This document shows, in pieces, positions 3,346 through 32,991 of a DNA stretch of 42,616 bases. The DNA is taken from NCBI GenBank assembly GCA_012269745.1, contig JAAXJR010000033.1:19551-62166 (forward strand), in the 5' to 3' direction. The DNA comes from Flavobacteriales bacterium. Lineage in GTDB: Bacteria > Bacteroidota > Bacteroidia > Flavobacteriales > Schleiferiaceae. The translations under genes and the position numbers were made by a program. The notes under the pieces are model-generated. The model did not search any database. It was not told the DNA's origin and worked only from the letters and a program-made list of their open reading frames with translations. The stretch's first letter is position 1. Every line of letters starts with the position of its first letter.

Positions 3346-4617
3346 ATGTACACTACTTCTAAACTCAAGAGATTTGCATCACTTTTTGCGGTGATTGCAC
3401 TCATGCTCTTCTCTTCTGTTGCGCAGGCCTTTGAGGGCGATGCCAAGAACGGGAGAAAGCTTTTCAAGCAAAATTGTGCGAGTTGTCACAAGCTCGACAA
3501 AAAATTAGTTGGTCCGGCCCTCACTGGGGTCACTGACAAGTATTCTGAGGAATGGTTGCTCAAGTGGATTCGCAATAATGCGGAACTACGTGCCTCTGGT
3601 GATGAGGATGCAATCGCAATTTTTGAAGAATACAACGGTTCAGTGATGAGTGCATTCCCTGCACTTAGCGACCAAGACATCTTTGACATCTTGCAATACA
3701 CGATCGACGGTGATCCTAAGCCGGTCGTAACTACTGCCGGTGGCGGTGGTGGAGTTGCAGCAGCTCCTGCCAAAGATTATTCTAAAGAAATTGTAATCGG
3801 TCTTGGATTGTTACTTTTTGTGATGATCTCATTGCTCGCAAGAATGAAGAATACCCTTCGTCTTGTGAACGGTCAAGACCCAGTAAGCATCCTTGATGAA
3901 GCGGGATGGTTCTGGGGCCGATTAATCAACAATAAAGGTTTTGTAACCGTAGCTACAATTGTAGTTACGATAGCCTTCCTGAATCAATTGTATTGGTTCA
4001 TGATGGGTGTTGGTGTAGAGCAGAACTACCAGCCAGAGCAACCAATCGCATTCTCTCACGCGCTTCACGCAGGTGAGAACCAGATTGATTGTAACTACTG
4101 TCACAGCTCTGCTCGTCACTCAAAGCATTCAGGTATTCCATCTGCAAACGTTTGTATGAACTGTCACATGTACGTGGACGGCTCTGAAATCAAGGACGAT
4201 GCAGGAAACCTTAAATATGACGGCGAGCGTTCACCGGAAATCGCAAAAATCTATGCGGCTATCGGTTGGGATGCTGACGAGCGTGAGTACATTGAAAACT
4301 ACGAGCAACAGCCAATCAAGTGGGTGCGTATCCACAACCTTCCAGATTTGGCGTACTTCAACCATAGCCAGCACGTAAACGCAGGTCAATTAGAGTGTCA
4401 AGAATGTCACGGTCCTGTTGAGACTATGGAAGAAATGTACCAGTACTCAGAACTTACGATGGGATGGTGTATCAACTGTCACCGTGAAACTGAGGTGCAG
4501 TTTGAGAAGAACGGTTACTACCAAGACTTCCACGAAGAATTAACTGAAAAGTACCACGGAGAAAAAATCACTGCTGAAAAGATTGGTGGTTTGGAATGTG
4601 GTAAGTGTCACTACTAA
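3346..4617 (+). CDS. actA: Alternative complex III subunit ActA, multiheme c-type cytochrome
   Basis: A 423-residue multiheme cytochrome. After a signal-like N-terminus (cut near AQA, residue 28), an N-terminal cytochrome c domain carries CASCH (Cys44). Two hydrophobic segments follow (about 150-165 and 205-225 residues in), then five more CxxCH motifs: CNYCH, CMNCH, CQECH, CINCH and CGKCH at the extreme C-terminus, six in all. In alternative complex III the heme chain of ActA carries electrons from quinol oxidation towards the oxidase. ATG 3346 was chosen because it gives the signal sequence directly; the longer frame from TTG 3262 adds 28 unlikely residues and spans the -7 element. It is the first gene of the operon, 13 bases ahead of actB. 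Confidence 0.93.
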   Translation: MYTTSKLKRFASLFAVIALMLFSSVAQAFEGDAKNGRKLFKQNCASCHKLDKKLVGPALTGVTDKYSEEWLLKWIRNNAELRASGDEDAIAIFEEYNGSVMSAFPALSDQDIFDILQYTIDGDPKPVVTTAGGGGGVAAAPAKDYSKEIVIGLGLLLFVMISLLARMKNTLRLVNGQDPVSILDEAGWFWGRLINNKGFVTVATIVVTIAFLNQLYWFMMGVGVEQNYQPEQPIAFSHALHAGENQIDCNYCHSSARHSKHSGIPSANVCMNCHMYVDGSEIKDDAGNLKYDGERSPEIAKIYAAIGWDADEREYIENYEQQPIKWVRIHNLPDLAYFNHSQHVNAGQLECQECHGPVETMEEMYQYSELTMGWCINCHRETEVQFEKNGYYQDFHEELTEKYHGEKITAEKIGGLECGKCHY

Positions 4618-4630
4618 TCGAGAAGTAAGA

Positions 4631-7600
4631 ATGACTGAGAATAATAAATATTGGAGAGGGATTGAGGATCAATCTAATCCAGAGCTCACAGAAAAGCTAG
4701 CGCAAAACGAATTCTCGAACGAGATTTCAAGTGCAGACTTCTTAGGTAATGACGAGGTTGCCGAAAGCCAAACATCTCGCCGTGATTTCCTAAAATTCAT
4801 GGGTTTCTCTACAGCGGCTGCAACACTAGCAGCTTGTGAGGCGCCTATCGTAGAAAGTATCCCTTACGTGGTTAAGCCAGATAGCTTGACTCCAGGTCTA
4901 CCTTCTTACTACGCTACGTCAATGTTCGACGGTATGGACTATGCTTCTATTCTTGTGAAAACAAGAGAAGGACGTCCTATCAAGGTTGAGCCAAATACGG
5001 AAGCACCTTTCAACGGTGGAACTAATGCGCGCACTCAAGCGTCAGTTTTAAGCTTGTACGACGGTGCTCGCCTAAGAAATCCGAAAGTGGGTGGTGAAGA
5101 TGCCTCTTGGGGAGATGCTCTAGCAGCAGCAAAAGCAGTGTTGACTGAAAAGTCTGTGCTTTTGACTTCATCAGTTATCAGCCCTGCATTGAAAACGGCT
5201 ATCGTGAAACTAGGTTTGCGTCACTTAAGCGTTGATGCGGTTAGCGCTAGCGCTCGTCTAGATGTATATGAAGGGTTCACTGGTAAACGCGGTCTTCCAA
5301 CAGTAGATTTAGATCATGCAACTACTGTATTTGCTGTAGGCGCAGACTTCCTCGGAGATTGGGGCGGTCAAAACTTGATGGCTTCTTATGCTGAACGCAG
5401 AAAGCCAGGACAAGGCATGTTGCGTCACTTGCAAGCTGAAGCGGGTCTATCTATTTCTGGTTCTAACGCAGATGTTCGTGTTAAGGCTAGAGTAAGTGAA
5501 TACGAAGCAGTCCTTGCACACGTATACAATAAGGTTGCAGCTTCTGCAGGTTTGTCGAAAGTAAGTGCACCTGAACTGCGTGAAGATATTGCTTCTAGCA
5601 TCGATGCTGCCGCAACAGAGCTTATCAAAGCTGGATCAGGTGCTTTGGTACTTAACGGCTTGAATACTGAGAATGCAGAGCGCTTAGCCCTAGCAATTAA
5701 CCTTGCTCTTGGTTCTAAAGCTTTCAATACTTCAAAGTTTGTTTACACGGCTAACGGAAACGACAAGGCTGCTGCAGCATTAGTTTCTGATGTAGCTGCA
5801 GGTTCTGTGGATACGATAGTAACATTGGGTGTTAACCCAGCGTATCAAATGCCTTCAGTGGACCTATCAGGGGTAAACGTAGTTGCAATTGCTGACCGCG
5901 AGGATGAAACAGCAGCTAACGCGAAGGTTGCACTTCCAGTAAGCCATTACTTAGAATCTTGGTCAGACTTTAGTGCAGTAGATGGTCACTATGCGGTAGG
6001 CCAGCCAACTATTAGTCCACTTTTCGACAGTAAGAGCGCTGTTGAGATAGTGAATGCATTGGCTGGAGGTTCAGAAAGCGCGAAAGCTTTGGTAGAAGCA
6101 AGTGCCGCTGCAAATGCTGGTTCTACTTCTTGGAACGCACTTCTTCACGACGGCTTTGCATCTACGGAAGCTGCTGAAGTAAGCATGAACGGTTCTATGG
6201 ATGCGAGTATGATTGACGTGAGCGGAATCAATGTGATGAAGCCTCAATCAGGACTTGAATTCTATACATATACTAAAACGGGTATGGGTGCTGGCGAAAA
6301 CGCCAATAACCCATGGACGTACGAATTACCAGATCCAATCACACGCTTGTCTTGGGACAACTACATTACTATGTCTGCTGCTGATGCTGTAGAACTTGGT
6401 ATCGAAGTAGCTCCAGAGTCAAACGGCGCGATGACGGGTAATACACTAAACATTACGGTTGACGGTAACACACTAGAAAACGTTCCAGTATGGATCCAGC
6501 CAGGACAAACGATGGGGACCTTAGGTCTTGCCGTTGGTTTTGGTCGTACTGCAGTGGGTAAGGTCGGTAACGGTATTGGTGTTAATGCCAATACATTACT
6601 TCCAGCCTCAGCAGCAGTAAGTACTGAGGTAAGTGCTTCAGCTTCAGAAGTTGAGCACGGCTTTGCATCAGTGCAGTTGGCACATACGATGATGGGACGT
6701 AAAATCGTAAATGAAATTTCACTTCCTACTTTCATGAATGTTAGTCACGAGGAGTGGAATGAAAAGCCAACGTTCGAGACGCATAGAGGTCCTTTGAGTG
6801 CCTTTGAAGCGAATCTATGGGACGATCACGATCACGAAACCTCACACATGTGGAACATGTCTATTGACTTGAACTCGTGTACAGGTTGTGGTGCTTGTGT
6901 TGTTGCGTGTTCGTTGGAAAACAACGTGCCTGTGGTAGGTAAAGACGAGGTTCGTCGCCACCGCGATATGCACTGGTTGAGAATTGACCGTTACTACTCT
7001 TCAGAAATGACAGCTGAAAGAGCGGAAGAAGAAGGTATCGGTGCTATTGAGAAATACGCGAAGATGGAAGTTCCTTCTGAGAGCCCATCGGTAGTATTCC
7101 AGCCGGTAATGTGTCAGCACTGTAACCATGCTCCGTGTGAAACTGTATGTCCTGTAGGTGCTACGGTTCACTCAAGAGAAGGTTTGAATCACATGGCTTA
7201 CAACAGATGTATCGGTACGCGTTACTGTGCGAACAACTGTCCGTACAAAGTGCGTCGATTCAACTGGTTCAACTACAAGGGCAATGAGAAATTTGCCGAT
7301 GTAAACCCATCACAAGACGATTACGGACGTATGGTATTGAACCCAGACGTGACGGTAAGAGCACGTGGTGTGATCGAGAAGTGTTCTTTGTGTATCCAGC
7401 GTATCCAATTGGGTAAACTAGAAGCGAAGAAAGACGGTAGAATGTTGACGGACGGCGAATTCACCACAGCTTGTGCCCAAGCATGTGGTTCGAATGCCAT
7501 CGTTTTCGGAGACGTGAACAACCCAGATAGCGAGGTAAGCCACTTGAAGCAACAAGGACGTGCATACCACCTATTGGAGGAAGTAGGTACACAGCCTAGC

Positions 7601-30247: not shown

Positions 30248-30625
30248 ATGAACTACCCAGATAATTTAAAGTACTCGAAGGATCACGAATGGATCCGCGT
30301 TGAAGGCGATGAGGCCTTTGTTGGAATTACAGCATTTGCAGCAAGCGAATTAGGTGATATCGTATTTGTTGATGTTGATACAGAAGGCGAATCTTTAGAC
30401 CAGGATGAAGTTTTCGGTAGTGTAGAGGCAGTAAAAACGGTAAGTGATTTGTTCTTGCCAGTTGCAGGGGAGATTTTGGAGTTCAATGAAGGATTAGAAG
30501 ATGCTCCTGAGGCTGTAAATGACGATCCATACGGTGAAGGCTGGATGGTTAAGATTAAAATTAGCGATGCGTCTCAATTGGACGGATTGATGGATTCAGC
30601 AGCATACCAAGCAATGCTTGGGTAA
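30248..30625 (+). CDS. gcvH: Glycine cleavage system H protein
   Basis: A 125-residue lipoyl carrier. The lipoylation site is Lys63 in [10 protein letters not shown], preceded by [12 protein letters not shown] and followed by [11 protein letters not shown] and [14 protein letters not shown], all standard for GcvH. It shuttles the aminomethyl group between the P, T and L proteins of glycine cleavage in the cytoplasm. The other components are not in this window. A terminator-like hairpin follows 25 bases after its stop but lies inside the next coding region. Confidence 0.97.
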
Positions 30626-30629
30626 AGCC

Positions 30630-31007
30630 ATGCGAAATCCTTGGATATATAGAGCCCCTGCCATTGGTTGGGGCTTTTTAATTTTTTACGCTTGTCTCGC
30701 ACCGGTGAGCGATCTCGATCCAGGTTGGGAGATTGAGATAAGCGACAAATTAGTTCATTTCATCCTCTATTTCTCATGGACTATTTTACTCTATTTCGCC
30801 TCTTCACGTGGATACAGAAGGCCCATTAAAAAAAGAAAGGCTCTCGTTTATTGGCTCGCAGCGGTAGTGCTTGGTGGACTTATTGAGCTACTTCAAAGTT
30901 GGATGGGCCTAGGTCGTTCAGCAGATCTTTTGGATGCCATAGCAAATACCGCTGGTGCAGTTGCTGGTATGGTTGCCTCTAGAGTGTTTCATAGAATCTT
31001 GGCATAG
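30630..31007 (+). CDS. VanZ-like family small membrane protein
   Basis: A 125-residue protein with about four hydrophobic segments. Segments AIGWGFLIFYACLAPVSDL, DKLVHFILYFSWTILLYFA and GRSADLLDAIANTAGAVAG match the VanZ-like family (conserved DxxHF and DxxAN-x2-G patterns). The family name derives from teicoplanin resistance, but the general function is unknown, and resistance should not be inferred. ATG 30630 is four bases after the gcvH stop; an in-frame TTG at 30618 would overlap gcvH. A hairpin with T tract (30651-30687) lies within the first 20 codons. Confidence 0.8.
   Translation: MRNPWIYRAPAIGWGFLIFYACLAPVSDLDPGWEIEISDKLVHFILYFSWTILLYFASSRGYRRPIKKRKALVYWLAAVVLGGLIELLQSWMGLGRSADLLDAIANTAGAVAGMVASRVFHRILA
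30651..30687 (+). terminator. Terminator-like hairpin inside the 5' end of the VanZ-like gene
   Basis: AGCCCC (30653-30658) pairs perfectly with GGGGCT (30670-30675), extendable by a G-U and an A-T pair, with an 11-base loop. It is followed by TTTTTAATTTTTT (30675-30687). It starts 25 bases after the gcvH stop, where a gcvH terminator would be expected, but codes for residues 8-20 of the next protein. Confidence 0.6.
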
Positions 31008-31050: not shown

Positions 31051-31779
31051 ATGAGCCTAAAAGTCAGAAAAACTGCAAAAGCAGATTTAGAGAACAAACG
31101 TCCCTTGTTCTTAATTCTAGGATTGGTTTTATCTCTAGGTGCTGCCTACACCGCACTCGAGTGGAGTGTCATAGAGCGTCCATTAATGGTTGTCGATAAC
31201 GGTGACGGTGCCTTTATAGATGAAGAGGACTGGGTTGTGCCCATCACCCAGAGGTCTATGCCAGCGAAGCCGTTGGCCGCAAGTATCCCGAAAATAGATC
31301 CGAATATCATAAAGATTGTTTCTAATACAGCTGTTCTTCCGGCGATAGATCCAAATCTGTTAACAGGTATTATTGACGACGGTATCGTCGAGATCATTGA
31401 TCCGGATCCTATAGATAATGATATATACAAGTTCACAGCTGTAGAGTCTAGACCTGTTTTTAAGGGCTGTGAAGGATTGGCTACCGATGATGATCGTTTC
31501 GCTTGTTTTCAAAAAGAGCTTTTAGGCTTTGTAGCCAAAAACTTTGAGGTGAGTGAAGAGATGATGATGTTCTCTTCTGGCGAGAAGGTTTTTGTAGAAT
31601 TCATCATTGAAAAAGATGGATCGGTACGTAAAGCCAAAGTGGTGCGCGGAGAAGATGAGCTAATCTCAAACGAGGCTGTACGCATGGTGAAGAGCTTGCC
31701 GGAATTTGTGCCTGCAAAGATCAATGGTAAGCCCGTCAGAATGTCGTACATTTTGCCAGTAAACGTAAAGCTTCAGTAA
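31051..31779 (+). CDS. TonB-like energy transducer without a proline-rich linker
   Basis: A 242-residue protein with a short cytoplasmic N-terminus, one transmembrane anchor (LFLILGLVLSLGAAYTALEW), a periplasmic linker, and a C-terminal TonB domain (VESRPVFKGCEGLA ... VFVEFIIEKDGSVRKAKVVRG ... MSYILPVNVKL). It is clearly paralogous to the third TonB gene in this set, including the N-terminal charged motif (ADLENKRPLF versus ADAENKKNLF), but lacks the polyproline stretch, and the usual P-x-LA-x4-I-x-GKVYV segment is altered (SEEMMMFSSGEKVFV). ATG 31051 gives the usual N-terminus. It may be a divergent TonB; whether it couples to ExbB/ExbD is unknown. Confidence 0.82.
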   Translation: MSLKVRKTAKADLENKRPLFLILGLVLSLGAAYTALEWSVIERPLMVVDNGDGAFIDEEDWVVPITQRSMPAKPLAASIPKIDPNIIKIVSNTAVLPAIDPNLLTGIIDDGIVEIIDPDPIDNDIYKFTAVESRPVFKGCEGLATDDDRFACFQKELLGFVAKNFEVSEEMMMFSSGEKVFVEFIIEKDGSVRKAKVVRGEDELISNEAVRMVKSLPEFVPAKINGKPVRMSYILPVNVKLQ

Positions 31780-31780
31780 G

Positions 31781-32170
31781 ATGAAAATGAAATTGGTATT
31801 CGCATTAATGGCATTAATTAGCCTTCCATCCATGGCACAAGAACAAGTGGCGCCCACTTTTGAAAATTGCCAACACATTGAAGCCAATGGTGATATGCAA
31901 GTGTGTTTCAATAGAACGCTAATGGAACATGTTGTAACCTCTTTGAAATATCCTGCTGGACTTGAGGAAGAAGGACGCGTTTTTGTAGAAATTACTTTTG
32001 ACGAAAATGGTCAATTGCAGGAGCCACAGGTGATGAAGAGTTTTTCGGAATTAGCCTCTAATGAAGCAGTTAAGGTGATGAAATCATTACCACAGGTTGT
32101 AATGCCGGCGACAGAAAACGGAAAGCCCGTTGCAATTACCTACACCATTCCTGTACAATTCAAGAAATAA
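31781..32170 (+). CDS. Secreted stand-alone TonB C-terminal domain protein
   Basis: A 129-residue protein with a cleavable signal peptide (MKMKLVFALMALISLPSMAQ) and essentially only a TonB C-terminal-like domain (GRVFVEITFDENGQLQEPQVMKS ... EAVKVMKSLPQ ... PVAITYTIPVQF). There is no membrane anchor, so it should be free in the periplasm. It keeps the two cysteines found at the domain start of both neighbours (FENC ... VCFN). It begins one base after the previous stop. It could be a regulatory or adaptor fragment of TonB; I know of no defined function. Confidence 0.75.
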   Translation: MKMKLVFALMALISLPSMAQEQVAPTFENCQHIEANGDMQVCFNRTLMEHVVTSLKYPAGLEEEGRVFVEITFDENGQLQEPQVMKSFSELASNEAVKVMKSLPQVVMPATENGKPVAITYTIPVQFKK

Positions 32171-32187
32171 CTAGTAAAAACTCATTT

Positions 32188-32218
32188 GTGCTAACGGTAG
32201 ATTTGGCTATTTTAGCAC
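32188..32218. promoter_or_regulatory. Inverted repeat bracketing the tonB -7 element
   Basis: GTGCTAA (32188-32194) and TTAGCAC (32212-32218) form perfect 7-base arms separated by 17 bases that contain TAGATTTG. It could be an operator. With arms this short, chance is a real alternative. Confidence 0.35.
32198..32205 (+). promoter_or_regulatory. -7 element (TAnnTTTG) of tonB
   Basis: TAGATTTG is an exact match ending 31 bases before the ATG at 32237. It indicates that the third TonB gene can be transcribed independently of the two upstream ones. Confidence 0.5.
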
Positions 32219-32236
32219 CTCAATTAGTTCTAACGC

Positions 32237-32944
32237 ATGAAGAATAGAAAATCCTACAATGCAGATGCAGAGAATAAGAAGAATCTCTTCTTATTGATCG
32301 GTCTTACGTTGTCATTGGCGCTGACTCTCTTCACATTGGAATACAGATCTTACGAATCAGGTCCTGGTGAGCTGGGTAAGATGAGTTATGAAGATGAAGA
32401 CGAGATTGCGATTATTACAAACAGAACTCCTCCTCCGCCACCTCCACCACCACCTCCTGCACCGCCAGAGGTTATCCAGATTGTAGAGAACGATTTGGAG
32501 ATCGAAGAGGTTGAATTTGAATCTACGGAAACTGACGAGAGCGAGGAAATAGAGATCGTTGAAGAAGTAGAAGAGGAAGAGGATGAAATCTTCAACTTTG
32601 CAGTCGTTGAGAATAAACCAGTATTCCCAGGTTGTGAAAAGAAAGCAACTGAGGATCAGAAGTTCTTGTGTTTCAACCAAGAGATTATGAAGCACATTGG
32701 TAAAAACTTCGAATTCCCAGAATTGGCCCGCCAAATGGGTATTCAAGGTAAGGTATATGTGAACTTCGTAATCGAGAAAAACGGTAAAGTAAGTTCAGTA
32801 ACGATCGCCCGTGGAGTGGATAAGTTGATTGATGACGAGGCTATCCGCGTAATCAAAAAACTACCTACATTTACTCCAGCAAAGCAGCGTGGTAAACCTG
32901 TGCGTATGCAGTACACGGTTCCAATTAATGCAAGATTGCAGTAA
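32237..32944 (+). CDS. tonB: Energy transducer TonB
   Basis: A 235-residue canonical Bacteroidota TonB. N-terminal cytoplasmic stretch, membrane anchor (LFLLIGLTLSLALTLFTLEY), a run of ten prolines then Ala-Pro-Pro (about residues 59-71), a highly acidic linker rich in Glu (about 75-118), and a C-terminal domain starting VVENKPVFPGCEKKA with ELARQMGIQGKVYVNFVIEK and MQYTVPINARLQ. It transmits proton-motive force from ExbB/ExbD to outer-membrane TonB-dependent receptors such as SusC-type transporters. It has its own promoter element and is closed by a strong terminator. ExbB/ExbD are not in this window. Confidence 0.94.
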   Translation: MKNRKSYNADAENKKNLFLLIGLTLSLALTLFTLEYRSYESGPGELGKMSYEDEDEIAIITNRTPPPPPPPPPPAPPEVIQIVENDLEIEEVEFESTETDESEEIEIVEEVEEEEDEIFNFAVVENKPVFPGCEKKATEDQKFLCFNQEIMKHIGKNFEFPELARQMGIQGKVYVNFVIEKNGKVSSVTIARGVDKLIDDEAIRVIKKLPTFTPAKQRGKPVRMQYTVPINARLQ

Positions 32945-32963: not shown

Positions 32964-32991
32964 AAAAGCCCGGGCCTTGGTCCGGGCTTTT
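32964..32991 (+). terminator. Rho-independent terminator after tonB
   Basis: A 10-bp stem (AAAAGCCCGG 32964-32973 with CCGGGCTTTT 32982-32991) and an 8-base loop; the T residues continue into CTATTTTTA. It lies 19 bases after the tonB stop. Confidence 0.92.

Follow-up and report, generated by a model that had tools for sequence, protein, structure and literature searches.

The window analyzed here, a 42,616-nt stretch from a marine-type Flavobacteriales bacterium, carried three TonB-domain genes in tandem (T1, T2, and T3), all on the plus strand. The gene order was gcvH, VanZ, T1, T2 and T3, then genes of the inositol-monophosphatase and UbiA families (as named by Pfam); we take cyoE and cox3 to be the names of locus neighbors and the long upstream gene to be sprA. 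The genes and associated signals were as follows:

30248..30625, plus strand: gcvH, a conserved neighbor (GCV_H, 141.8 bits)
30618..31007, plus strand: VanZ-like gene, a conserved neighbor (VanZ, 41.5 bits)
31051..31779, plus strand: T1, anchored divergent TonB paralog of 242 aa (ATG at 31051, stop codon end at 31779)
31781..32170, plus strand: T2, exported TonB C-terminal domain without an anchor, a precursor of 129 aa
32185..32215, plus strand: candidate own promoter of T3 (TTTG, 19-nt spacer, TATTTTAG)
32188-32218: dyad GTGCTAA-N17-TTAGCAC, which overlaps the T3 promoter candidate and occurs once in the genome
32237..32944, plus strand: T3, canonical TonB of 235 aa with anchor, ten-proline run and acidic linker
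32964..32991, plus strand: strong intrinsic terminator after T3 (12-pair stem, then a T-rich tail)

The three consecutive TonB-domain genes of the original prediction were recovered with exact coordinates, each scoring above the Pfam TonB_C (PF03544) cut-off of 24.6 bits: T1 at 40.4 bits (E 4.1e-10), T2 at 40.6 bits (E 3.6e-10) and T3 at 72.5 bits (E 4e-20). With NCBIfam TIGR01352 (cut-off 27.1), T2 (28.2) and T3 (46.4) were above and T1 (22.1) was below the cut-off. TonB-dependent receptors are numerous in Bacteroidota, in which several TonB paralogs are also common. The PF03544 search of the genome that holds the window (2.27 Mb, completeness rating 100%) found no TonB_C genes besides T1, T2, and T3, and the same genome had 23 plug domains of TonB-dependent receptors and three ExbD genes. 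Two of the ExbD genes lay close together on contig C38 (L063, L064) and the third (L062) on the contig of the window. There was no sign of a mobile cassette, as a tblastn search with T2 against plasmid records matched eight records, all at <60% identity; among the matches listed (five of the eight), the genera are presumably Bacteroidota. A contig scan with T2 yielded five loci, every one of them from a member of the genus.

The genus was sampled with 25 genomes, 23 of which had TonB_C matches; none were detected in G003 and G020, assemblies 86% and 88% complete. T3 was present in all 23, although cut by contig ends in G002 and G024 and interrupted by N in G009. T1 was found in 20 of the 23 (a partial copy, cut by a contig end, in G009) and was absent from G004, G010, and G014, while T2 had an intact copy in 19, a broken one in G014, and none in G010, G011, and G012. 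In all, five of the 23 genomes lacked T1, T2 or both in intact form. A T1-like tail remains in G010; VanZ is broken and T1 reduced to its last residues in G004; T1 is joined directly to the T3 upstream region in G011 and G012; and the first part of T1 is continuous with the middle part of T2 in G014, where an assembly fault is possible because the assembly is only 58% complete. Since each side of the genus tree has members with T2, its absences are best read as losses. The two genes do not form an obligate pair, with T2 found without T1 in G004 and T1 without T2 in G011 and G012. T1 and T2 are old and kept in most relatives, yet dispensable. No relation between receptor number and the loss of T1 or T2 was visible, the five lacking genomes having 15–19 plug domains against 11–24 over all 25 (by inspection, uncorrected for completeness).

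In G023 (L085), T1 and T3 group with those of G001, and T2 and both spacers are of the G018/G005 type, a pattern that suggests that T2 was exchanged through recombination. Another TonB_C protein, standing alone, occurred in G008, G018, G005, and G009 (L087, L088, L089, and L090) and formed a clade of its own (100/100); three of the four had a lipobox-like start, and at L088 and L090 the gene precedes deaminase-like and protease-like genes (names by eye).

T3 had a hydrophobic segment from residue 17, ten consecutive prolines and 29 D/E in the 83 residues taken as its linker, bearing out its description as the canonical copy with a ten-proline run and an acidic linker. The beta3 strand of TonB pairs with the receptor TonB box, and a region near residue 160 is also in contact, according to the available text of PMC11658791; in T3 this strand had 0.00 changes per site over 20 orthologs (conservation counts left out the rows G009_T3, G014_T2, G002_T3, and G024_T3, and the G009 T1 row is partial). 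Outside the genus, 34 loci (L091–L124) were sampled from among the matches listed. At 21 of the 21 gcvH-tonB loci examined there, one TonB had a run of 5–11 prolines. At least two TonB_C genes stood in a row at nine of these 21 loci, and at seven of the 11 in the same family, although nine of 21 is not an unbiased rate because the loci were chosen for their match to T2. T3 is an ordinary TonB and a general energy transducer, the conserved member of a gcvH-VanZ-tonB arrangement that recurs throughout the order; the tonB slot of this arrangement appears susceptible to duplication in tandem.

The gap between T2 and T3 measured 63–77 nt across the genus genomes. The box TATTTTAG was seen by eye upstream of T3 in 23 of 23 aligned genus genomes, preceded by TTTG in eight and by TTG in the others, and a TATCTT(T)A-like box, also noted by eye, precedes tonB in several further members of the family. 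The candidate T3 promoter resembles the Bacteroidota -33/-7 boxes, with TATTTTAG similar to the -7 element. The overlapping dyad was recognized by eye in 16 of the 23 genomes, as GTGCTAA-N17-TTAGCAC in nine and as GCGCTAA-N17-TTAGCGC in seven, a matched change in both arms; the left arm differs in the other seven genomes. This dyad may be an operator or a hairpin. A promoter of its own would explain why T3 survives the losses of T1 and T2.

T1 was described in the original prediction as an anchor joined to a TonB domain, and both parts were recognized. The N-terminal hydrophobic anchor was scored by hydropathy in the T1 orthologs and judged by eye in the T1 of the window, where the upstream start cut the hydropathy scan short. 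The accompanying claim that T1 has no proline linker is correct for the polyproline run alone: the longest run is a single proline, but 10 scattered prolines occur in the 91 residues taken as its linker (13 in T3), which is similar in length to the linker of T3. The altered P-x-LA segment ascribed to T1 is real, as the [FYW]P proline was found in none of the 20 T1 orthologs, compared with 19/19 for T2 and 20/20 for T3. The beta3 strand of T1, on the other hand, was conserved at 0.40 changes per site, or 0.29 times the domain mean (p = 0.003; this and the other beta3 p values come from random column draws over eight regions per gene and are uncorrected).

An alignment of 11 sequences of the window's sub-clade showed that T1 and T3 have a common N-terminus, K.RK...AD.ENK..LFL..GL.LSL, and a common ED....IT.R segment after the anchor; the N-terminal and post-anchor segments were loosely alike in many other TonBs of such loci (by pattern and eye, no control). 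By analogy with the strand predicted after the anchor and named the motor box in the available text of PMC12204202, we infer that the ED....IT.R segment of T1 is a motor box. The AlphaFold2 model of T1 was poor (mean pLDDT 48.3). Most likely, T1 is an alternative energized transducer, with a putative coupling to the motor and a putative receptor choice of its own.

T2 began like a signal peptide and was otherwise free of hydrophobic stretches, with neither anchor nor linker (hydropathy and eye); together with its TonB_C score of 40.6 bits, this agrees with its earlier description as a TonB domain preceded by a signal peptide alone. The AlphaFold2 model of T2 had a mean pLDDT of 85.9, and 6sly was its only Foldseek match at E ≤0.001. 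VIA gave Z scores of 9.6 to 6sly (rmsd 2.7, 86 residues), 9.2 to 9ddz and 6.6 to chain B of 2gsk (rmsd 2.5, 75 residues); structures of TolA domain III, which has a related fold, reached up to Z 9.0 (1lr0) against the same model. T2 is predicted to adopt the fold of a TonB C-terminal domain, the class that gave its best structural matches; because the AlphaFold2 input alignment included T1 and T3 rows, the model depends in part on the family assignment. In the window, T2 starts 1 nt past the T1 stop codon, and the spacing was 1–4 nt in 17 of the 18 genomes with both genes; in the 18th (G013), the listed frame begins upstream and overlaps. Such spacing suggests that T1 and T2 are translationally coupled.

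A matching pair of cysteines at the start of the domain, also noted in the original prediction, was present in every ortholog of all three types (T1 20/20, T2 19/19, T3 20/20). The same pair was carried by 49 of 52 sequences outside the genus T1–T3 set, which rules it out as a mark of local origin; being general to these TonB domains, it is no evidence for local duplication.

Phylogenetic analysis of the TonB domains was based on 93 rows and 118 columns, with long branches and bootstrap values still short of convergence. G009_T3 (N stretch), G014_T2 (broken) and G039_p1 (end unaligned as a TonB domain) were left out, as were the G044 and G057 rows, by choice and without a strong reason, and the near-duplicate genus genomes G002, G006, G013, G014, G016, and G022 were thinned from the tree. 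Each type formed one genus-wide clade (bootstrap/SH-aLRT 100/99 for T1, 99/97 for T2, and 98/99 for T3), which rules out a recent local duplication; on this tree, the duplication predates the genus. No member of the T2 clade from outside the genus was found among the sequences placed in the tree.

T1 and T3 were 39% identical over their whole length, anchor and linker included. Constraining the two as a clade in the domain tree gave a better likelihood than the free search by 7.2 log units (p-AU 0.68). Among the full-length anchored proteins, they fell into one group (95/92) with TonBs of four other family members, and forcing T1 and T3 alone into a clade cost 0.33 log units. A clade of T1 with the non-polyproline paralogs found beside tonB in G027, G032, and G036 was neither supported nor rejected (AU p = 0.28 for domains, 0.25 for full length). 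Given the adjacency of T1 and T3, their identity and the constrained trees, local duplication is the natural reading for these two, so that the proposal of local duplication followed by divergence stood for T1 and T3. It was less clear-cut for the origin of T2, since a clade of T1 and T2 was allowed as well (better than the free search by 2.75 log units, p = 0.58).

The decay of the first two copies, considered earlier as the contrary outcome, was not found in the window's genome, where the frames are intact and dN/dS is far below 1. NG86 estimates of dN/dS were 0.02–0.11 for T1 (15 pairs), 0.05–0.36 for T2 (12 of 15 pairs, the other three being saturated) and 0–0.075 for T3 (16 pairs); YN00 estimates, where run, reached 0.16, 0.42, and 0.15, respectively. 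By these ratios, T1, T2, and T3 are each under purifying selection. The mean number of changes per site was 1.38 for T1, 2.15 for T2, and 0.38 for T3.

Other unanchored TonB_C genes, with exported starts judged by eye, were present beside tonB in G033 and G049 and elsewhere in the genomes of G025, G036, G040, and G048. The exported copy of G033 was sister to the local tonB (100/96) and is, as judged from the tree, an independent case of duplication into an exported form. At positions 3858–6154 of a G040 locus (L108), three exported TonB_C proteins were encoded in tandem, two of them with a second cysteine pair near the N-terminus, which suggests doubled domains.

We interpret the cassette as a division of labor, with a rough probability of 0.6, in which the general work falls to T3, T1 serves as an alternative energized transducer and T2 is an unpowered periplasmic accessory made with T1. 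The TonB locus would have widened to three paralogs before the radiation of the genus. T3 would be moved by ExbB/ExbD, its C-terminal domain pulling on TonB-dependent receptors. T1 would act as a second anchored transducer, probably still engaging the motor and still offering a receptor-binding beta3 strand; with its YP region and linker remodeled, it would most likely serve a subset of receptors or partners. T2 would be made together with T1 and, lacking an anchor, could not pass on force; it would most likely be a periplasmic accessory that binds a partner of the Ton system, either the TonB box of a receptor or the domain of T1 or T3. Arguing against this reading are the T1 score below the TIGR01352 cut-off, the poor T1 model, the occurrence of T1 and T2 apart from each other in G004, G011 and G012, and receptor counts that show no visible shift where these genes are missing.

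A narrower role for T2, and an unlikely one in our estimate, is that of a natural soluble competitor, which would occupy receptor TonB boxes but exert no pull, thereby damping or timing the uptake powered by T3 and T1. Its predicted TonB C-terminal fold and the YP-type proline kept in 19 of 19 orthologs are in line with such a role, and artificial soluble TonB fragments bind receptors, as stated in the available text of PMC11658791. The receptor-binding strand of T2, beta3, was invariant at 13 of 15 columns in the window's sub-clade (6 T2) but at only four of 15 in the other sub-clade (13 T2). Competition for TonB boxes is therefore possible in the former and fits poorly in the latter. Over all 19 orthologs, beta3 showed no extra conservation relative to the remainder of the domain (2.73 changes per site, 1.27 times the domain mean, p_low 0.92), and the absence or breakage of T2 in four of 23 genomes also argues against this role. 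A more speculative form of the idea, which we consider improbable, is that T2 serves as a built-in governor, made in step with T1, which holds receptors TonB-occupied but unpulled and rations uptake; if so, the unanchored TonB-domain genes beside tonB in G033 and G049 would be further cases.

The close spacing of T1 and T2 (1–4 nt in 17 of 18 genomes) and the single T1 and T2 clade that the trees did not reject could also point to a T2 that works only with T1, in a complex in which T2 alters the receptor choice of T1; but an intact T2 without T1 in G004, and an intact T1 without T2 in G011 and G012, make this reading distinctly improbable. T1 and T2 could, finally, be ageing duplicates on their way out, with little or no function. 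The remnants or absences in G004, G010, G011, G012, and G014 are what would be expected of such genes, as are the changes per site of T1 and T2 (1.38 and 2.15, against 0.38 for T3) and the T2 dN/dS of up to 0.36 (NG86) or 0.42 (YN00) in some pairs. Nevertheless, dN/dS was <1 in every computable pair, T1 was found in 20 of 23 genomes (in one of them truncated by a contig end) and T2 was intact in 19, so that we regard loss of function as very unlikely. The division of labor among T3, T1, and T2 remains the preferred interpretation. This cassette makes the role of extra TonB paralogs in Bacteroidota testable: with three distinct builds side by side in a small genome, three genes suffice to ask what an anchored TonB without polyproline and an unanchored domain contribute.

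Compared with known systems, the kinds of components are known and their combination is unusual. T3 resembles the TonB energy transducer (PF03544; Bacteroidota tonB) in every tested feature. T1 is like it in the anchor, the post-anchor segment, the length of the linker, the TonB_C domain and the beta3 strand, and unlike it in having neither polyproline run nor YP motif; T2 differs from it in lacking both anchor and linker. In the literature searched, in which subscription papers were thinly covered, we came across no report of a natural TonB domain that is exported and has its gene next to tonB, a weak negative.

The available text on Riemerella anatipestifer (PMC4446302) likewise describes several TonB paralogs (TonB1–TonB3) in one Flavobacteriales genome, and one of these TonB genes has no exb neighbors and could not be deleted by the authors of that study, which we list as a likeness. 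All three proteins are reported to lack the YP motif, and disruption of tonB2 lowers hemin uptake; loss of YP is therefore not equivalent to loss of function, and the motif is not strictly defining. Unlike the cassette of the window, the Riemerella genes are dispersed, two of them in exbBD operons, and that text does not describe an exported TonB domain comparable to T2. The closest counterparts of T2 are the soluble periplasmic fragments of TonB made in the laboratory (available text of PMC11658791), which consist of the TonB C-terminal domain without an anchor and bind receptors; those fragments are artificial, whereas T2 is naturally encoded and begins with a signal-peptide-like segment.
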